From contig NZ_VWNB01000014.1 in the NCBI RefSeq assembly GCF_013387475.1, positions 1 through 64,000 on the forward strand: a DNA stretch of 64,000 nt, read 5' to 3'. Shown piece after piece: positions 24,635 through 47,527 of the stretch (positions are counted from its first letter, which is position 1; the number at the start of each line of letters is the position of its first letter). The position numbers and the translations under genes are program-made. The DNA comes from Mariprofundus sp. KV (GTDB lineage: Bacteria; Pseudomonadota; Zetaproteobacteria; Mariprofundales; Mariprofundaceae). The notes below the pieces were generated by a model. The model was not told the DNA's origin. It saw nothing but the letters and a program-made list of their open reading frames with translations, and ran no database searches.

Positions 24635-26251
24635 CTAAACCCGGATGCTCAGACCGCTCTCTGCAGTGCGAACGGGCTGCTGCATCGATTGGGCTGTCTG
24701 GGTCTCTTTGCTTCCTGTTTCATCCGATTTAGCAAAAGCGCTTCCTGAGCCGCTACTGTCGGAGCCAAATCCACTCTCCTGGCTCTGTGAGCCCATGGAG
24801 AAGCCGGAGAGATCAAATCCCTGCTGTGCAAGGGCGGCTCTCAAGACCGGCAGTTGCTGATCAATGGCGGCGCGGGTTGTGCCCTGATCGACAACCATAT
24901 GCACCTGTAGCTGTTTGCTGGCATCGGTCTGCAGGGTGATCTGAATCTTGCCAAGATGCGCAGGGTCAAGCTGGATCTCCAGTTTGGTCTGACCATTGCT
25001 GGCGGAGTGGGCGATATGATTCATGCTGTCAAACACGCTCATCACCGGGGCGGCTTTGCTGGTCAGGTAACTCTGAAACTGAGTGTTACCGGCTGAAGCG
25101 GTTGCACCGGAACGGCTGTCGCCACTCATGGCTGACATAGCACGGCCATCCTGTGCGCCCTTGTCTGATGACTGGCTTCCGGCATCAGGTGTAGAGGCTT
25201 CAGCGATGGTGTTCTGAACCACTGTCGCGGCTGCACTGGCCTGAACCGCACTCTGCTGAGGCTGTCCATGCGCGTTTTTGCCCTGCAGGTGGTTTTGAAC
25301 AGCGGCAGCAAATGCTGCGCCATTGCTGGTTTTACCTAAGCCTGTCTCTTTGACTTCAACGTCCAGGTGGGTTGCGGTATTGGCGGCGATGGTTTTTGCA
25401 TCATGGTTTGCCGCAGCCGTTGTTGCCGCTTTCTGAGCAGATCGCTGACCCTCTTTCACTAAACCTGAAGCTGCCGCTTCCGCCGGATTCAGGTCTTTTG
25501 TCAGCTGAGCCGATGTCTCAGTCTTGGCGATAGTGGACTCGGCTTTCTCACCTTTGACCAGCTGCGTAGCGGTCTCAGGCTTGCCGATAGTCAATTCGGC
25601 TTTCTCACCCTTGACCAGTTGCGTAGCGGTCTCAGGCTTGCCGATAGTCAATTCGGCTTTCTCACCTTTGACCAGCTGCGTAGCGGTCTCAGGCTTGCCG
25701 ATAGTCAATTCGGCTTTCTCACCCTTGACCAGCTGCGTAGCGGTCTCAGGCTTGCCGATAGTCAATTCGGCTTTCTCACCTTTGACCAGCTGCGTAGCGG
25801 TCTCAGGCTTGCCGATAGTGAACTCGGCTTTCTCACCCTTGCCCGGCTGAACAGTTGTATCAGGCTTGCCGATGGTGAACTGTGACTGCTCGCCTTTTTT
25901 CCTCTGATTCATGGCTTCAGGATTGCCGATGATGAACGTTGCTTTTTCACCTTTAACAGGTTTCGTTGCAGCTTCGACTTTTTCACCTGCAAACAGAACA
26001 GTGGCTACAGCTGTGCCATTTTCGGTTGCTTTCTTTTTAGTGAGAGGATCCTGTTCGGCCACTTTCGCTACGAACTTACCTTTCTTGAGTGCCAGCGCGT
26101 CTGGTTCCGTGGCAGTAAACAGCCCTTTGCCTTTGCCCTGACCCTGCTTATCCAGCATAGCCATGAGTTTGGCGAAGAGGCCACCTTTTGCCGACTTCCC
26201 TGATTTACCTAAGATGCCGGATAGGCCGGTTCCATTTATTTGTTCGATCAT
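24635..26251 (-). CDS. fliK: flagellar hook-length control protein FliK with tandem repeats
   Basis: About 538 residues. The C-terminal Flg_hook domain (about 415-490) is clear in LEIQLDPAHLGKIQITL and VLRAALAQQGFDLSGF; it switches export specificity when the hook is finished. The N-terminal half is a low-complexity ruler-like region with a 19-residue tandem repeat (units such as KGEKAELTIGKPETATQLV). Two ATGs are close together (26260 and 26251); I chose the shorter, MIEQINGTGLSG. First gene of the operon with flgD and flgE. Confidence 0.85.
   Translation of the reverse strand: MIEQINGTGLSGILGKSGKSAKGGLFAKLMAMLDKQGQGKGKGLFTATEPDALALKKGKFVAKVAEQDPLTKKKATENGTAVATVLFAGEKVEAATKPVKGEKATFIIGNPEAMNQRKKGEQSQFTIGKPDTTVQPGKGEKAEFTIGKPETATQLVKGEKAELTIGKPETATQLVKGEKAELTIGKPETATQLVKGEKAELTIGKPETATQLVKGEKAELTIGKPETATQLVKGEKAESTIAKTETSAQLTKDLNPAEAAASGLVKEGQRSAQKAATTAAANHDAKTIAANTATHLDVEVKETGLGKTSNGAAFAAAVQNHLQGKNAHGQPQQSAVQASAAATVVQNTIAEASTPDAGSQSSDKGAQDGRAMSAMSGDSRSGATASAGNTQFQSYLTSKAAPVMSVFDSMNHIAHSASNGQTKLEIQLDPAHLGKIQITLQTDASKQLQVHMVVDQGTTRAAIDQQLPVLRAALAQQGFDLSGFSMGSQSQESGFGSDSSGSGSAFAKSDETGSKETQTAQSMQQPVRTAESGLSIRV
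25530..25950 (-). repeat. 57-bp tandem repeat inside fliK
   Basis: A 57-base unit coding for 19 residues. Four units are identical at protein level (KGEKAELTIG...), one differs by L to F, one by L to S with further changes, and two or three more diverged units flank them. Neighbouring copies differ only at a few third positions (CCC/CCT, CAG/CAA), so expansion was recent. Confidence 0.9.
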
Positions 26252-26340
26252 GCCAACCATTGAGCATTTTTTGGGCCATATAGAAAACCGTTTAAAAACA
26301 ACTGTTTATAGGTAAAGTGGAAGTTTTGTCTGGGCAATGT

Positions 26341-26557: not shown

Positions 26558-26565
26558 TAAAAAAG

Positions 26566-27087
26566 GGTTCATCGCGCAATTACGGGAATGATCCTCATAG
26601 GAACTGAGTTGCTTCAATCAAACCAAAGGCAATGTAAGTGAATATATATATTCACTTGTCCTTTCTTTGATGGCAAAGAAAGAACGAAAGAAAGCCACAC
26701 CCCGGAACCAGCCAGCCCTTCGGGTTCCCGATCCTGCATATTAAAAATCGGCCACGGCTCCGCCGCTCTTCTCCGATTTTGAATATTTGTCTCGGCAGCC
26801 TGCTAACGGGGGATCAAACGACACTGTTCCAGCCGCAAGATTGAGTTGGCTTTTAATCCCGCTCCAAGATGCGCCGGAGTATTTATTGTTCAATGGAAAG
26901 AGGCGAAAATAGTTTCGCCCCATTGAACGATAAATACGCAGGGAGAAGCAGATTGCCGGGCAGCTTTCTTTGGTTCGTTTCTTTTCTGGAAAAGAAATGA
27001 ACAGATAAATCTACCATTATAGCAGGAGAGGATACGCCTCCAGTTTTGATTTACTAAGACTGTTTTCCCGGACTTCCGCGAAGAACC
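26566..27087 (+). mobile_element. MITE-like non-autonomous element, copy 1
   Basis: A 522-bp element almost identical to 45381-45898. Terminal inverted repeats are 23 bp (26566-26588 and 27065-27087) with 19 matches; both ends begin GGTTC and share TCGCG and CGGGAA blocks. It is flanked by a perfect 8-bp duplication, TAAAAAAG (26558-26565 and 27088-27095). It carries no transposase; a 60-residue minus-strand frame (26741-26923) is identical in both copies. It differs from copy 2 by one substitution and two 2-base indels. The 8-bp A/T-rich duplication and GG-starting ends resemble ISL3-type elements, which is inference. Confidence 0.85.
26880..26936. repeat. large internal hairpin of the MITE, copy 1
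   Basis: Outer arms TATTTATTGTTCAATGG and CCATTGAACGATAAATA pair with one G-T type mismatch, and inner arms GGCGAAA and TTTCGCC continue the fold. The same structure is at 45691-45747. It would be very stable in RNA or single-stranded DNA. Confidence 0.85.
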
Positions 27088-27088
27088 T

Positions 27089-27124
27089 AAAAAAGTGGCC
27101 GCGAGTTTTGCAACTGGCGGCCAC
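27089..27124 (-). terminator. intrinsic terminator of the ion-channel gene
   Basis: On the minus strand the arms GTGGCCGC and GCGGCCAC form a stem followed by six T residues. The T-tract is part of the target duplication of MITE copy 1, so the element is inserted directly after this terminator. Confidence 0.85.
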
Positions 27125-27149: not shown

Positions 27150-30017
27150 TTAATCATCCTGATGCTCACCAATGAGAATCAGTTCAGCGATGTTGTGCTT
27201 GTACTCGGTCCAAGAGTAGCGGGAGACCGGATTGCCGAATGGATTGAGAATGATCTGGTGCTGACGCAGGCAGGAGTAGTCCTCTTCACGCGGGAAAAGC
27301 TTGCGAATGGTGTTCTGCAGCGGGTCATTCCAGACAAAACTCTCTTTCAGACGATAACCGATCCAGACATAACCTTTGGCCAGCAGCTCGGCAAACAGCG
27401 CTTCAGCATCTTCCGGAAGCGGGGCGGTTACATTCAGTATCTGGATATCCATCTCATCGATATCACCAACATCACCCATCATATCATCAATGGTATGGCG
27501 CAGGGTACGCTGCAGTTGATAGGCCTCAGGATTTTCCGAGCGATACATATGGTAGCTCGTATGTGCCACATAGGTGCCGTAAAAGGCGTTGGGTACGGTG
27601 ATATGAATCTCATGCGTCAGTTTAAAGCGTTCCAACTCCTGCTGCAGCAGCAGAGCCTGAGCACGGTTCTCAAGTACAGGATAGATATCAGGGTGGACGC
27701 ACAGCTCGTTCACAATAGTGACCAGATGCGAGAGCACTGTGGCAATACTGGCATAGGGGTGGGCCTTCAGGTGCGGAGCACGTGAGAGCAGTATTTTATC
27801 GGCCTCTTTCACATACGGCCGCAGGAAATTCATATCGGCATAGTTCCAGCGCACCAGCTCAACGGTGATGCGATCTTCACCACCTTCAGCTGTGCCTGTG
27901 CGACGACGCAGGTACTCCAGCTGGTCGGCGCACTCCTCTTTGCTCATATCATCAATCAGGGTAACTTGAATGGTCTCAAAATCATCGAGAAGGCGTTTGA
28001 GCAGCAGAGGCAGGCTGCCTACCCAGCCGGTAATAAGCAGCTTGAGCTCTTTTTTTACTTTAACAGGCTCAAGACCCAGGGTGGGAGATTCGAGTTTCGG
28101 GCAGGGCCTGTCATGCAGACGCTTAATGGCAAACAGTGTCTCGGAATAGAGAGCATTCGGGCCAATAGCGACACCCAGAATAGATGGGATATGCATCGGC
28201 AGTTCAAATGATTCTGCTTTGTAGATCGGATGTGCCCGCCCGCTCTCATCAGCGATAGCAACCAGCGTAACACCACGCATCAGCAGCAGGGCAGCCAGAT
28301 CATCCAGCGGCATGGATTGTGTGCTGTTGGGCAGGCTAAGGCAGATTCTGCCGTTTTCGCGTTGCAGTGTGCCGCCCCATTCGGAGATCTGCAGTGAGGA
28401 GTCCTCGGTGCGTTCGGGGATCATCAGGCGTTCCATCACCTGATCGAAATCTTTGTAGACGAGAATGTTTTTAAACAGGTTGGCACGCACGTCGGCCTGT
28501 GAGAGTACAACCGTCGGCTTGTTGTAGAAATCGGTTGTGTCCCAACCTATCTGCAGCATATGTTGATGCGAATCGAGGTGTGGAGTTGCCATGCCCGGTG
28601 TTGCGATATTGACATAGATCTCAGGGTTGACCCTGCGCACAGCAATCAGTGAGTAGGTGGCATGGGCCAGATCATCTGCGCCGGTATGGCCATCGGGGAG
28701 ATTGATCACTGCCTGTCTGGCGTGACCCAGATTGATACGCTGCAGTGACTTCATCTCTTCCACTTCGCCCCAGCGGTAGGAGACCCAGTTGTGTTCAATA
28801 AGTGACTCAGGCATTTTTTCTGAGTCATTCAGAATAACCAGCTTTAGTTTAGAGAAGCTGCGCTCGGAGACGACTTTCAGCTGTTCCACGATAAACGGTG
28901 CAACTTTGGACCAGCCCAGCATCACCATGTGATTGGTGATGTTCAGCCGCTCGTTGCGCAGTTTGGCCATCAGACCTGAGACGATGTGGGCACCGATACC
29001 GATGAAGAAGGCGAAGATGAATACGCCGACAATTACAGCCAGTACCGAGAAGATGGCGATCGAGGTCGCCTCGGGGTAGACCACGGTATTGCCAGGGTCA
29101 GTGAACATGCGGAAGGCGAACCAGATGGGCGCAAACATGCCCTGATCCTGTGCGTTGACGACGCCATCCTGACTGTAGTCGAAATTGGCGAAGGTGTAGT
29201 GGCCGATGACTCCACCGCCGATGGAGAGTACCGCCAGCAGCAGGACAATCAGATTGATCTCCTGCATGAACTGACCTTCGCGCATCACCTCTTTGAGGTT
29301 CCTGATGATCACCATCCAGGGGCGCAGCAGACGAACCAGTCGCAACATTCGCAGGGCGCCACCATATGGGATAAAAGCAAAGGCAGGTATCATGACAATC
29401 GTGGCGATGGTATCGACCCACCAGTAGGCCCACTCTGCCATTTTGTCTTTTCGTGATTCATAGTTCATGTGTCGCATAATCAGCAGGCGAATCGCCAGCT
29501 CGACAGAGAAGAAGATAATGATGATCCACATCAGCGTGTCTTCGGCAAAGAAGGAGAGCAGAATAATCAGTGAGATCAGCATGCCGTAGGTGGGTGAATA
29601 CATCGCACTCTGCAGATCCAGGTAGCGGAACATGCGCAGTGTGCGCAGCAGGTAGAAGGCTCGGATCAGGCGTGCTGCAGCAGCGTTCTCGGCATCTATG
29701 GGGATATCAAATACGGTGATCAGCAGGGAGAGGATGCCGATGACATCGAGAACCAGAAAGAGCGCGTCAATTTTTTGATTCAGAGAGGAGCGATAGGGAT
29801 TGGTGTGACGCTTGTTGATCATGATGGCAAGGCGCATCGAGAGTTCGCCGATAAAGAAGATAAAAAGAACTGCAGCCAGAATTTGATTGTGCGTGAACGA
29901 GAGGGCGATCAGTCCCATCATCAGGAAGCCGAAACGTGGATGCATCAGAATCCACTCCATGTGATGATAGAAAAGCGGACGGTCGCTGAAGACGGAGTTC
30001 ATATTGTTATGCTGCAT
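27150..30017 (-). CDS. large cation channel with two S4-like blocks and RCK-type domains (CASTOR/POLLUX-like)
   Basis: A 955-residue membrane protein. Two consecutive four-helix blocks each end in an arginine-patterned S4-like helix: first around residues 115-135 (RLIRAFYLLRTLRMFRYL), second around 225-245 (LRMLRLVRLLRPW). A pore follows (S5 near 262-285, loop FRMFTDPGNT, S6 near 320-345), without the GYG potassium filter but like the ADAGNH-type loop of CASTOR/POLLUX channels. The C-terminal half has two Rossmann-like RCK regions (from NHMVMLGWSKVAPF and KLLITGWVGSLP). A doubled sensor block is unusual. Ion and stimulus are unknown. Start not well supported by a ribosome site. Confidence 0.7.
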   Translation of the reverse strand: MQHNNMNSVFSDRPLFYHHMEWILMHPRFGFLMMGLIALSFTHNQILAAVLFIFFIGELSMRLAIMINKRHTNPYRSSLNQKIDALFLVLDVIGILSLLITVFDIPIDAENAAAARLIRAFYLLRTLRMFRYLDLQSAMYSPTYGMLISLIILLSFFAEDTLMWIIIIFFSVELAIRLLIMRHMNYESRKDKMAEWAYWWVDTIATIVMIPAFAFIPYGGALRMLRLVRLLRPWMVIIRNLKEVMREGQFMQEINLIVLLLAVLSIGGGVIGHYTFANFDYSQDGVVNAQDQGMFAPIWFAFRMFTDPGNTVVYPEATSIAIFSVLAVIVGVFIFAFFIGIGAHIVSGLMAKLRNERLNITNHMVMLGWSKVAPFIVEQLKVVSERSFSKLKLVILNDSEKMPESLIEHNWVSYRWGEVEEMKSLQRINLGHARQAVINLPDGHTGADDLAHATYSLIAVRRVNPEIYVNIATPGMATPHLDSHQHMLQIGWDTTDFYNKPTVVLSQADVRANLFKNILVYKDFDQVMERLMIPERTEDSSLQISEWGGTLQRENGRICLSLPNSTQSMPLDDLAALLLMRGVTLVAIADESGRAHPIYKAESFELPMHIPSILGVAIGPNALYSETLFAIKRLHDRPCPKLESPTLGLEPVKVKKELKLLITGWVGSLPLLLKRLLDDFETIQVTLIDDMSKEECADQLEYLRRRTGTAEGGEDRITVELVRWNYADMNFLRPYVKEADKILLSRAPHLKAHPYASIATVLSHLVTIVNELCVHPDIYPVLENRAQALLLQQELERFKLTHEIHITVPNAFYGTYVAHTSYHMYRSENPEAYQLQRTLRHTIDDMMGDVGDIDEMDIQILNVTAPLPEDAEALFAELLAKGYVWIGYRLKESFVWNDPLQNTIRKLFPREEDYSCLRQHQIILNPFGNPVSRYSWTEYKHNIAELILIGEHQDD

Positions 30018-43164: not shown

Positions 43165-44747
43165 TGCTGAACCTTCTTATTATTGAGGATCAGCCTGCTG
43201 TTCGCGAGGTGGTTGCTGAAATTGCCGGCGAATTAAGTCAGGAGGTAAGGGTTGCGCAGGTCGGTAGCCTTGAAGAGGCGAGAGCTGTTCTGGCTTCAGA
43301 AGAGTGGAACGGCCTGATCACTGATATGAGTCTTGGTGATGGCAATGCGCTGGAAATGATTGCTTCACTCAAAGAGGGTGGAGTGAAGATGCCTCCTACC
43401 ATTCTGATGAGTGGCTTTTTAACCTCAGCCAGAATGGCTCAGGCTCTGCAGTTGGGTATTGAGCATGTGCTGGCCAAACCCTTTGCTCCTGATGTGCTGC
43501 TTGATTGTCTGGAGAAGATGCTCAGCAAAGATGAAGAGCATGCGGTTGCCTCGGCAGACAAACCTAAACGCCAGCAGCGCTCTTCTGATCGACTGCTTCC
43601 TGAAATGTTTGAGATGGATCGCCGCCTCGGCCTCGTCTATCGAATGTTCGATGAGATTCCCGCTCAGCACGATGTCTCGTCTGTCTGCTCAAGTGCTTTG
43701 AATCTTGCTGTTGAGGTGGTACATGCCAAGGGCGGCTATCTTGCCTTTTTTGAGCGCAGTCATCACAAGCTTGTCATGGTCTCTTCCCAGGGTATGGGAG
43801 AGGTTGCACCATCCTGTACGCTTGATGAGACCTCCTTTCAGCCGCTGGTTGCCGGTGAAGAAGAGCTTATTCAATCCTTTCCTGATGCTCCGGGTATCTG
43901 CTGGCCGGGAGTGGATGAGCCTCATCATGTTGCCATTCCTGTTCGTCTGCAGGGTGTTTCGATGGGAGTGCTCTGCCTGCTTGATCCGGCATCAAGTGAG
44001 CCACTGAAGAGCGAGACCCGTCAGATGCTGGGGCTGCTGGTCAAGGAGCTCGATACGCTGCTGGATAATCGTGCGGTGCATGCGGCGCTCGCCGATAACA
44101 TGCGCGAAACATTGATTGCCCTCGTACGCTCACTGGAAGCGCGAGATCGTTACACCCGGGATCACTCAGGACGGGTAGGGTCGCTATCGGCCATTCTGGC
44201 CGAGGATATGGGGTTGGATCAGGACCGCGTTGATCTGATTCGCACAGGTGGTCTGCTGCATGATATTGGCAAGTGCGGCATTCCTGATGCGGTGCTGCTC
44301 AAGCCGGATCGCTATACCGAGAATGAGTTTGCTATCATGAAGGCGCATCCGGCGATTGGTGACAATATCCTGAAAAACATGGATACCATGATCAGGGAGC
44401 GGTTGATGCTGCGTCATCATCATGAGCGGTATGACGGGCTCGGTTATCCTGACAGGCTGGCCGGTGAGGATATTCCTCTTGAGGCGCGTATTGTCTGTGT
44501 TGCCGATGCCATCGATGCAATGACCACACATCGCGTTTATCGAATGGCAAGACCACTCTCTTTCTGTGTCGAGCAGCTGAAGGCCGGTTCTGGCACGCAA
44601 TTTGATCCGGAGATTGTGAAGGTAGCCCTTGCCGCGATTGAGCGCGGGGTGGTGAGTACACAGGCAGAGGGGCAGCAGAACATTGAGGGTGTTATGCCTC
44701 TGTCGGCCCTGATATCTGTTAAAACTGAGGTTCGTAACTATGGCTAA
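43164..44747 (+). CDS. response regulator with GAF-like and HD-GYP domains (probable c-di-GMP phosphodiesterase)
   Basis: 527 residues. The receiver (about 1-120) has LIIEDQP, phosphoacceptor in LITDMSLGDGN, MSGF and LAKPF. A GAF-like region spans roughly 150-315. The HD-GYP domain (about 325-500) keeps the metal residues: H in YTRDHSGR, HD in LLHDIGKCG, H in MKAHP, HH in LRHHHERYDG and D in VCVADAIDAM. The signature loop reads GLGYP. It should hydrolyse c-di-GMP under control of phosphorylation or GAF ligand. Cotranscribed with the receiver upstream and PilZ downstream (8-bp overlap). Confidence 0.9.
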   Translation: MLNLLIIEDQPAVREVVAEIAGELSQEVRVAQVGSLEEARAVLASEEWNGLITDMSLGDGNALEMIASLKEGGVKMPPTILMSGFLTSARMAQALQLGIEHVLAKPFAPDVLLDCLEKMLSKDEEHAVASADKPKRQQRSSDRLLPEMFEMDRRLGLVYRMFDEIPAQHDVSSVCSSALNLAVEVVHAKGGYLAFFERSHHKLVMVSSQGMGEVAPSCTLDETSFQPLVAGEEELIQSFPDAPGICWPGVDEPHHVAIPVRLQGVSMGVLCLLDPASSEPLKSETRQMLGLLVKELDTLLDNRAVHAALADNMRETLIALVRSLEARDRYTRDHSGRVGSLSAILAEDMGLDQDRVDLIRTGGLLHDIGKCGIPDAVLLKPDRYTENEFAIMKAHPAIGDNILKNMDTMIRERLMLRHHHERYDGLGYPDRLAGEDIPLEARIVCVADAIDAMTTHRVYRMARPLSFCVEQLKAGSGTQFDPEIVKVALAAIERGVVSTQAEGQQNIEGVMPLSALISVKTEVRNYG

Positions 44748-45321
44748 AGCGCAAAAAGATCATGGCAGACAGGATTTTCGTGTTAACGACATGATTCCTA
44801 TTAGCGACGAAAAAATGACGCAGGAAGCTTTCGAGATTAATAAGACCAAGGTGGGGATTAAGTCGCGCCAGAGTAGTATGCTGCAGGAGATGGTCGGTGG
44901 CCGTGATCTGTTCAGTGGCGAAGCCCATGAGGGCATGAATCCTGATGTTGCCAGTATGTTGGAGTCACTTGATGCCAAGCTCAACTATCTGATCGGTGTC
45001 AATGTGCTCAATGATGCCAGTCATAGTGAGCTGGAGGAGCGGGCTGTGAATCTGAGTGTGACCGGCGTGAGCTTTGTTACCTCCAATCAATATGCTCCCG
45101 GCGATAAGACAAAAATCACGTTGATGCTGCCCTCGTTCCCTCCCTCTACACTGGAGTTGCTGGGGACTGTGCGAAGGGTGGAGTCCAGAGATGGCAAGCG
45201 CATCTGGATTGGTGTCCAGTTCTATTATCGCTGTGATGAAGAGGAGGACTCTATTCAGAAGTATGTTTATCGCCGACATCGTGAAACGATTCGCTCCAGA
45301 AGCAGGAACAGGGATGGTTGA
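44740..45321 (+). CDS. PilZ-domain protein
   Basis: 193 residues. The C-terminal part (about 95-175) is a PilZ barrel with the (D/N)xSxxG motif as NLSVTG and a conserved tail GVQFYYRCDEEE. An RxxxR-like motif (RQDFR) occurs near residue 10-14, unusually far from the barrel, with a helical segment (LESLDAKLNYLIGVNVL) between. It probably responds to c-di-GMP or acts as a motility adaptor. Ends the operon that includes the HD-GYP protein; a terminator follows. Confidence 0.8.
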   Translation: MAKAQKDHGRQDFRVNDMIPISDEKMTQEAFEINKTKVGIKSRQSSMLQEMVGGRDLFSGEAHEGMNPDVASMLESLDAKLNYLIGVNVLNDASHSELEERAVNLSVTGVSFVTSNQYAPGDKTKITLMLPSFPPSTLELLGTVRRVESRDGKRIWIGVQFYYRCDEEEDSIQKYVYRRHRETIRSRSRNRDG

Positions 45322-45351
45322 ACCTGTTTTTACAACGTATCCGTTACATCA

Positions 45352-45380
45352 AGAGGGCTGATATAGCCCTCTTTTTTTTA
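45352..45380 (+). terminator. intrinsic terminator after the PilZ gene, MITE target
   Basis: The arms AGAGGGCT and AGCCCTCT with a GATAT loop are followed by eight T residues. The last bases of the T-tract (TTTTTTTA, 45373-45380) are the left target duplication of MITE copy 2. Confidence 0.9.
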
Positions 45381-45898
45381 GGTTCATCGCGCAATTACGG
45401 GAATGATCCTCATAGGAACTGAGTTGCTTCATTCAAACCAAAGGCAATGTAAGTGAATATATATTCACTTGTCCTTTCTTTGATGGCAAAGAAAGAACGA
45501 AAGAAAGCCACCCCGGAACCAGCCAGCCCTTCGGGTTCCCGATCCTGCATATTAAAAATCGGCCACGGCTCCGCCGCTCTTCTCCGATTTTGAATATTTG
45601 TCTCGGCAGCCTGCTAACGGGGGATCAAACGACACTGTTCCAGCCGCAAGATTGAGTTGGCTTTTAATCCCGCTCCAAGATGCGCCGGAGTATTTATTGT
45701 TCAATGGAAAGAGGCGAAAATAGTTTCGCCCCATTGAACGATAAATACGCAGGGAGAAGCAGATTGCCGGGCAGCTTTCTTTGGTTCGTTTCTTTTCTGG
45801 AAAAGAAATGAACAGATAAATCTACCATTATAGCAGGAGAGGATACGCCTCCAGTTTTGATTTACTAAGACTGTTTTCCCGGACTTCCGCGAAGAACC
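45381..45898 (+). mobile_element. MITE-like non-autonomous element, copy 2
   Basis: A 518-bp twin of the element at 26566-27087, in the same orientation. Its 23-bp imperfect terminal inverted repeats are at 45381-45403 and 45876-45898, and the perfect 8-bp target duplication TTTTTTTA is at 45373-45380 and 45899-45906. The right duplication contains the TAA stop codon (minus strand) of the diguanylate cyclase gene, so that gene keeps its original end. It holds the same 60-residue frame (45552-45734, minus) and the same hairpin. Confidence 0.87.
45691..45747. repeat. large internal hairpin of the MITE, copy 2
   Basis: Identical to the hairpin of copy 1: long outer arms, GGCGAAA/TTTCGCC inner arms, ATAG loop. 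Confidence 0.85.
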
Positions 45899-45903
45899 TT
45901 TTT

Positions 45904-47139
45904 TTATGCCTGACTGGAGACTGTGATTTGGTTGCGACCGTTTCTCTTTGATTGGTAGAGCGCCTCATCAGCAGCTTTGAAGGTATTGGCATGATCTGTG
46001 CCGGGAAGGTGCTCGGCGATACCGATGCTGGCGGTGATATCAATCATGCCTGCAGTTGTTTTGAATGATTTCATCTCAATGGAGTGGCGCAGTGTTTCAG
46101 CCAGGTGTGTACTGTTCTCAAGGTCTGTGTCGGGGAAGATGACGCAGAACTCTTCGCCACCCACGCGTGCGGCCAGGTCCGTGCTGCGTGTGCAGGCATC
46201 AAGCATTTGGGCCATCTGCTGTAATACCTCATCTCCGACATCGTGACCATGGGTGTCATTGATCTGTTTAAAGTGGTCGATATCAACAACCAGAAAACAG
46301 AACCTGGACTGGCCTAGTGTTTTAAGATATTCCGCTAGGCGTCTGCGGTTGGCAAGGCCTGTAAGCGGATCGTTGCGAGCCTCAGACTCAGCCTCTTCAA
46401 GCTGTCTGGAGAGCGAGGAGAGTTTTTCGACGTTGAGCTGGATCGATTGATGCAGCTTTTCACTGGCACTGCTCAGTTTGTTGCCAGCTGAGAGGATGCC
46501 CATGCGCGCCTTCTGCAGAACAGCTCTGGCCTGTTCGATATCATCCGGAAGCTCCTGCTCCAGTAGCTGTTTGGCCTGTTTCAACTCATCAGACTCTTCA
46601 CCGGCCTCTTCCAGTACATTTGAGATTGCCTGCAGTGATGGAGCGAGTGCATCGACCAGCTGCTCCAGTTCATTTCTCATTGCCGCATCGTGCTGCAGGT
46701 GCTGCTGCAGCAGTTGTTGCAGGTGGCGGGCGGCGCGTTGCAGTGAGTCTCGCTTGGGGGCTTTTTCACCAATCATGCCGCAGGTGCTGTCAAGCAGGGC
46801 ACGGGTGACAGGGATATCCTGCAGGGCCTGCATAATCAGCATCTGCCGCTGCTCTACCTGAGCCTCTACTGCTGCTTTGGCATCGTCAGGGATGGTGCCG
46901 CTGTGAGTGGGGCGAAGCAGTGGGCCATGCTGGGCGTCGAGCAGCTTCGCGAATTGCTGGATGGCCCAAAGGTGCGTGCTGTTCGGAATGCCGGGGTTCT
47001 GTCTGATCTGCTCAAGGGCGGCAATCATGCGGCGCGTGGTGGTACGAAGTTCAATATCATCTGGCATAGCGGCAAGGACGACAGGGCGAACCACATCCAT
47101 GTCATCAAGGAGTTTGTTGAGTAGTTCGACCTGGCTCAT
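45904..47139 (-). CDS. GGDEF diguanylate cyclase
   Basis: About 411 residues. The C-terminal GGDEF domain (about 250-410) has the active signature GGEEF, substrate residues in DPLTGLANRRRL and VVDIDHFKQIND, and an inhibitory-site RxxD (RSTD) five residues before the signature. The N-terminal 240 residues are mainly helical with a coiled coil leading into the cyclase (KLSSLSRQLEEAESEA); no membrane segment. The ATG at 47139 (MSQVELLNKLL) lies 4 bases after the upstream small gene stop. The stop codon lies in the MITE target duplication. Confidence 0.9.
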   Translation of the reverse strand: MSQVELLNKLLDDMDVVRPVVLAAMPDDIELRTTTRRMIAALEQIRQNPGIPNSTHLWAIQQFAKLLDAQHGPLLRPTHSGTIPDDAKAAVEAQVEQRQMLIMQALQDIPVTRALLDSTCGMIGEKAPKRDSLQRAARHLQQLLQQHLQHDAAMRNELEQLVDALAPSLQAISNVLEEAGEESDELKQAKQLLEQELPDDIEQARAVLQKARMGILSAGNKLSSASEKLHQSIQLNVEKLSSLSRQLEEAESEARNDPLTGLANRRRLAEYLKTLGQSRFCFLVVDIDHFKQINDTHGHDVGDEVLQQMAQMLDACTRSTDLAARVGGEEFCVIFPDTDLENSTHLAETLRHSIEMKSFKTTAGMIDITASIGIAEHLPGTDHANTFKAADEALYQSKRNGRNQITVSSQA

Positions 47140-47143
47140 AGCA

Positions 47144-47527
47144 TCAGGACTGCAGAGAGCGCATGCGTTCAGTCTCAACGGCCAGCAGGGTGTCAGCCTC
47201 TCGCAGCTCTTTGTTCTGGGTGTTGGCAGAAAGATGCTGTTGCACCTGATTTCGCAGCTGCTCAATGTCGGAGATCATCTGCGGGGATGGTGCGTTGCCG
47301 GACTCCAGGCACTGCATGGCCTGATCCAGCAGGGATACGCTTTCGTTGAGGGCTTGCCATGCACGTTTTTCTGGCTCATGTGCGGGCGTCTGCTCGTTGC
47401 TTTCAATCTCGCGTGTATCAGAAATTTCAGCGTCAAACAGGGTCTGGAACACACCTGTTGTGCCGCTCTGTTTGGTTTTTCGGGTTGTTTGGCCGGATAC
47501 CGGTAAATTATTATGGATTTTCATCAC
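47144..47527 (-). CDS. small FliX-like protein upstream of the diguanylate cyclase
   Basis: 127 residues, hydrophilic and helical. The N terminus (MKIHNNLPVSGQTTRKTKQSG) and the C-terminal block ADTLLAVETERMRSL resemble the class II flagellar assembly regulator FliX, together with a central helix ALNESVSLLDQAMQCLESG. The similarity is by eye and modest. It is in an operon with the cyclase, which would make a flagellar checkpoint protein plausible. Confidence 0.5.
   Translation of the reverse strand: MMKIHNNLPVSGQTTRKTKQSGTTGVFQTLFDAEISDTREIESNEQTPAHEPEKRAWQALNESVSLLDQAMQCLESGNAPSPQMISDIEQLRNQVQQHLSANTQNKELREADTLLAVETERMRSLQS

Follow-up and report, generated by a model that had tools for sequence, protein, structure and literature searches.

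A MITE family of Mariprofundus, probably of ISL3 origin, with a preference for the T-tracts of intrinsic terminators

The MITEs investigated in this study display a real and quantifiable target preference within the known ISL3 family of transposons. Their duplicated target is an A/T tract, which in the genus Mariprofundus is preceded by a terminator hairpin far more often than are matched T-runs of the same regions. The A/T tract is the constant element of the target and the terminator its frequent, non-obligatory setting. The two copies that are contained in the window, which denotes the whole analysed stretch of 64,000 nucleotides of Mariprofundus sp. KV, are defined by the following features, listed with their neighbouring genes and terminators:

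26558–26565: left target duplication of copy 1, TAAAAAAG
26566–27087, plus strand: MITE copy 1, 522 bp
27088–27095: right target duplication of copy 1, TAAAAAAG
27095–27124, minus strand: terminator hairpin of the gene at 27150–30017 (-20.0 kcal/mol), its T-tract running into copy 1
27150–30017, minus strand: conserved gene of 955 aa upstream of the terminator of copy 1, with orthologs in the genus
44740–45321, plus strand: PilZ-domain gene (PF07238, 2.5e-8) upstream of the terminator of copy 2
45351–45373, plus strand: terminator hairpin of the PilZ gene, AAGAGGGCTGATATAGCCCTCTT (10 pairs, -14.2 kcal/mol)
45373–45380: left target duplication of copy 2, TTTTTTTA, within the T-tract of the PilZ-gene terminator
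45381–45898, plus strand: MITE copy 2, 518 bp, delimited by its sequence ends and 8-bp duplications
45381–45403, plus strand: left inverted repeat of copy 2, GGTTCATCGCGCAATTACGGGAA
45876–45898, minus strand: right inverted repeat of copy 2, GGTTCTTCGCGGAAGTCCGGGAA
45899–45906: right target duplication of copy 2, TTTTTTTA, of which 45904–45906 is the TAA of the minus-strand gene
45904–47265, minus strand: GGDEF diguanylate cyclase gene (PF00990, 7.7e-44), converging on copy 2

The boundaries of copy 2 had been proposed in an earlier note on this DNA and are exact, with two perfect 8-bp duplications enclosing imperfect inverted repeats that begin with GG. The same applies to its description of the surroundings, since the PilZ hairpin immediately precedes the T-run that hosts the left duplication, and the right duplication ends in the stop codon of the converging cyclase gene. 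Copy 1 also abuts a terminator hairpin, that of the 955-aa gene, whose product has no match in Pfam or NCBIfam. The hairpin is located on the side of the right end in copy 1 and of the left end in copy 2, which is the opposite relation to the element ends that had been noticed before. In the genome (2.53 Mb, 28 contigs) we found five copies of the MITE, one with an altered interior, whose identity of 99–100% identifies them as young. All five are bordered by perfect 8-bp duplications and sit at terminator T-tract sites, and both orientations of the element are found. The family is short, non-coding and multi-copy, with terminal inverted repeats (TIRs) and target duplications, as is characteristic of MITEs; in the list of open reading frames, the interior of copy 2 contains none longer than 60 aa on the plus strand, and a search of Rfam with this copy provided no match.

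The interior of copy 2 holds a modular repeat (45470–45830) with inverted CTTTCTTT/AAAGAAAG ends, which is also present in many genomes of the family, there without the TIRs of the MITE, and which looks like a separate repeat family that was captured by the element. In one of the five copies, at 2707–3322 of L083 (contig C21 of G000), the interior is partly swapped for another stem-loop-rich segment, related to one within the element at C25:28281. MITE interiors thus appear to be exchanged as modules. Elsewhere in the window, a tandem array of about 6–7 copies of a 57-bp unit (25445–26014, 92% matches) lies in a 541-aa gene with a FliK-type flagellar hook-length control domain (24635–26260, minus strand), where this in-frame repeat could vary in number.

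The mobility of the element is reflected in the sister species G001, the nearest relative (PilZ 94% identical), in which both window loci are free of it and which thus provides the empty sites that the earlier note had proposed to seek in related strains. At the locus of copy 2 its sequence reads AAGAGGGCTGATTCAGCCCTC-TTTTTTT-ATGCC, and at the locus of copy 1 the hairpin is conserved and followed by TTTTCATTC. The former site implies that the cyclase stop codon already resided inside the terminator T-tract before copy 2 had inserted, and that it was preserved by the duplication. The idea of a stop codon 'rebuilt' upon insertion is thus correct in that the TAA was kept, but this is the necessary outcome of any 8-bp duplication at this position and no special repair. 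In two other species, G011 and G006 (L304 and L305), the terminator of the PilZ ortholog contains GCGCTTTTTTA and directly thereafter, as judged by eye, what appears to be a degenerate end of this type from another element, which suggests that this terminator was struck twice, independently, within the genus.

The generality of the pattern is illustrated by a survey of 23 genomes of the genus, where the end pattern has about 130 matches compared to one for the reversed pattern. Pairing of the ends and joining of their two flanks yielded 39 TIR-bounded elements, a number that includes a 2831-bp TIR pair that is possibly two separate elements. This pair (L163 2143–4973, contig C28 of G013) has nearly matching duplications and encloses a gene for an RsgA-like GTPase, and it may represent one element with cargo or two MITEs next to each other. 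The duplication matches at 8/8 positions in 14 elements and at 7/8 in 12 more, whereby the admission of elements partly by matching duplications introduces a mild bias to A/T runs among the poorer matches. Directly ahead of the duplication, a hairpin of -13 kcal/mol or stronger is found in 31 of the 39 elements, whereas it is -5.2 kcal/mol or weaker in the remaining eight, and the two classes are thus clearly separated. If other taxa are included, the first base of the T-run and that of the duplication are no more than one position apart at 39 of 42 hairpin sites.

As background for these numbers we used the same regions outside of the elements (about 546 kb), with genes assigned by a crude gene caller. 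Among T-runs of at least six bases, a hairpin is present at 25/26 insertions and at 62/169 intergenic background sites (Fisher p = 3e-9), the effective sample being slightly below nominal due to shared flank sequence in a few elements (L084/L152; L100/L117/L149). The enrichment over ordinary T-runs, for which a survey had been suggested in the earlier note, is thus confirmed. The same insertions also exceed T-runs that follow a gene of the same orientation within 200 nt (31/60, p = 4e-5) and those between convergent genes (14/30, p = 8e-5). A preference for A/T runs anywhere is therefore insufficient to account for the distribution. Additionally, 25 of 36 A/T-rich duplications contain a homopolymer run of at least six bases, which is found in 9.8% of A/T-rich intergenic 8-mers, corresponding to a seven-fold excess.

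The ISL3 family is usually described with A/T-rich 8-bp targets. The window MITE itself encodes no transposase gene, and the assembly of this genome contains no complete autonomous copy. Its relationship is revealed by its ends: the right inverted repeat of copy 2 is nearly identical to GGTTCATCGCGGAAGTCCGGGAA, the end of an ISL3-type transposon at the starts of contigs C24 and C28. Each of these contigs opens within a frame that encodes the C-terminal part of an ISL3 transposase (PF01610, 2.4e-9), whose stop codon falls in nearly the same right end as that of the MITE. Such an end also borders a 1341-bp element with mismatching flanks in a Desulfovibrionaceae MAG (L228), which encodes a 415-aa ISL3 transposase (NF033550, 318.6 bits). 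Since ISL3 transposases are found with such ends, the window element is, from its sequence, best read as an ISL3-derived, non-autonomous MITE, which would be mobilised in trans by a transposase of this type. One copy of the host's own transposon lies beside AAAATTTT in a histidine-kinase reading frame, a site with no hairpin. Two further groups of ISL3 elements are unlikely mobilisers: no end of the GGTTC(A/T)TCGCG type was found around the full element at C23 (L015/L018), and those of G014 and G016 have other ends and non-terminator targets. In G016, the C-terminus of an IS66-type transposase runs straight into an ISL3-type inverted repeat of the subgroup (L101 1–339, contig C140), as if an IS66 relic were enclosed between ISL3-type ends.

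Mariprofundus species and Zetaproteobacteria MAGs are among the records that share the end sequence. Such ends in T-tracts behind hairpins were also detected in Alcanivorax hongdengensis, Alcanivorax sp. S6407, Natronospirillum and Luteibacter, and in one Phycisphaerae and one Desulfovibrionaceae MAG, records in which misbinned contigs are possible. The pattern across these taxa indicates that the preference travels with the element and is not tied to one host. Seven recent copies of such a transposon, whose transposase is 48% identical to that of L228, are present in the complete genome G255. Five of them reside behind terminators and one, at TTTAAAAA, has no hairpin. The seventh has entered a T-tract that lies within the loop of its terminator hairpin and parted the stem arms (CCCCGC-TTTTTCAA-GCGGGG; L356 390–405, 1689–1700), and it could serve as a natural experiment on what the transposase reads. 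On plasmids and in E. coli, members of the subgroup invariably occupy A/T tracts, in one case TAAAAAAA inside yhaV, and 3 of 10 resolved cases (L367, L368, L370) lie behind true terminator-like hairpins. The loop copy and the plasmid and E. coli copies, with or without hairpins, both conform to a rule based on the DNA tract. In G139, the eight copies of an ISL3 element with different ends occupy varied targets, and one of these copies is located behind a hairpin.

To what extent the hairpin itself matters is illustrated by the composition of the sites. For insertions in T-runs of at least six bases, the eight bases ahead of the run include six or more G/C at nearly all hairpin sites. If this border is required, hairpins are found at 42/53 background T-runs and at 25/25 insertions, where they are slightly stronger than in the GC-matched background (p = 0.035). 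As so many GC-bordered background T-runs already have hairpins, composition, a GC-rich segment followed by a T-tract, explains most of the hairpin excess; the small remainder stays and speaks against a model of composition only. Terminators are probably favoured for their combination of GC-rich DNA, T-tract and harmlessness. The earlier note had left the choice between terminator structure and A/T runs as target. The A/T tract has stood up, recognition of the structure as such appears unlikely, and copies lacking a hairpin, which had been named as evidence against the proposal, exist as a minority (8/39 in the genus, besides several copies of transposons in other places).

We thus favour, with moderate confidence, a process where the non-autonomous MITE would be moved in trans by a DDE transposase of the ISL3 type, encoded by a transposon with nearly the same end. 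This transposase would make cuts with an 8-bp stagger in a short A/T tract, ideally of 6–8 T:A pairs, with a GC-rich border. Intrinsic terminators, with their GC-rich stem followed by a U-tract, would constitute the main intergenic places of this layout. Upon insertion, hairpin and T-tract would stay intact on one side, whereas the tract, together with any stop codon, would be rebuilt on the other. Such insertions would be harmless and persist, while those in other T-tracts would more often be lost. That the transposase reads the composition of the DNA and not the hairpin, and the share of selection in the outcome, are inferred from the described distributions.

It appears unlikely that the transposase instead truly recognises terminators, either by an extruded hairpin (cruciform) beside the T-tract or by a paused terminating RNA polymerase with a melted U-tract region, in which case terminators would be an actively chosen safe harbour. 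Such recognition would account for the hairpins at 31/39 genus elements and at 5/7 recent G255 copies, for duplications starting at the first T past the stem, within one base, at 39/42 sites, for the pattern in several phyla and for the excess over GC-matched T-runs. However, it is at odds with the eight genus elements, the host transposon copy and the 7/10 plasmid and E. coli copies without hairpin, with the insertion in the loop instead of behind the hairpin, and with the large part of the excess that is explained by composition. It appears equally unlikely that a subgroup of ISL3 DDE transposases actively recognises terminators as safe harbours in several phyla and would, among DNA transposons, correspond to group IIC introns.

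Even less probable is survivorship alone, where targets would merely be A/T-rich, as usual for ISL3, and harmful copies elsewhere would have been lost. Insertions in genes are few despite the fact that 268/437 T-runs of at least six bases are coding, and plasmid copies, which experience weaker selection, are less often found at terminators, both as expected from this scenario. Still, the excess persists compared to sites downstream of genes and between convergent ones, which are expected to be equally harmless, the duplications favour homopolymer T-runs over other A/T-rich intergenic 8-mers, all five young genome copies are at terminators, and the ISL3 element with other ends lacks such a pattern (1/8). 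Finally, a group IIC intron or its relic, which would share the landing place directly behind intrinsic terminator hairpins (PMC3898094), can be dismissed, as it is contradicted by the inverted-repeat ends, the 8-bp duplications and the insertion in both orientations, with no reverse transcriptase reading frame and no group II ribozyme or other Rfam match detected in the element.

The comparison with known systems further defines the properties of the family. Group IIC introns move by an RNA-based mechanism with neither inverted repeats nor target duplication, unlike the MITE, and their recognition of hairpins is accepted whereas for the MITE it would be hypothetical. The ISL3 subgroup with GGTTC(A/T)TCGCGG ends (annotated as ISAeme19 and relatives) has nearly the same ends as the MITE and A/T-rich 8-bp duplications. 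In contrast, the MITE is 518 bp long, compared to about 1.3 kb for the insertion sequences, and has no transposase and an unrelated interior, and the terminator preference of the genus MITEs is much stronger than that of the plasmid copies of the ISL3 transposon. Bacterial MITEs in general are short, non-coding, multi-copy elements with inverted repeats and target duplications at intergenic and A/T-rich sites (PMC10969869), whereas the window family specifically prefers terminator U-tracts, as quantified here. Some insertion sequences target REP palindromes (PMC1525189) and resemble the MITE as DNA transposons that use extragenic palindromes as safe sites. However, REPs are a repeated family, while the targets of the MITE are unrelated terminators that have only the GC-rich stem and the T-tract in common. 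A case from E. faecium, where resistance genes are inserted in the terminator of an rRNA operon close to an ISL3 element (PMC11702846), does not serve as support, with the duplication being ACTAGAAA and the hairpin broken. In the open-licence literature searched, we found no report of ISL3 or other DDE transposons preferring terminator U-tracts, which, as only papers of this kind were covered, is weak evidence of absence.

Collectively, our study bears on the old question of how transposons spare dense bacterial genomes. A simple preference for a T-tract with a GC-rich border would steer MITEs and their ISL3-type transposons for the most part to the U-tracts of terminators. There, the terminator and an adjacent stop codon are preserved by the duplication, and the MITE can multiply while both neighbouring genes remain unharmed. 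The T-tract rule predicts the locations of a whole group of ISL3 elements and MITEs in unrelated bacteria.
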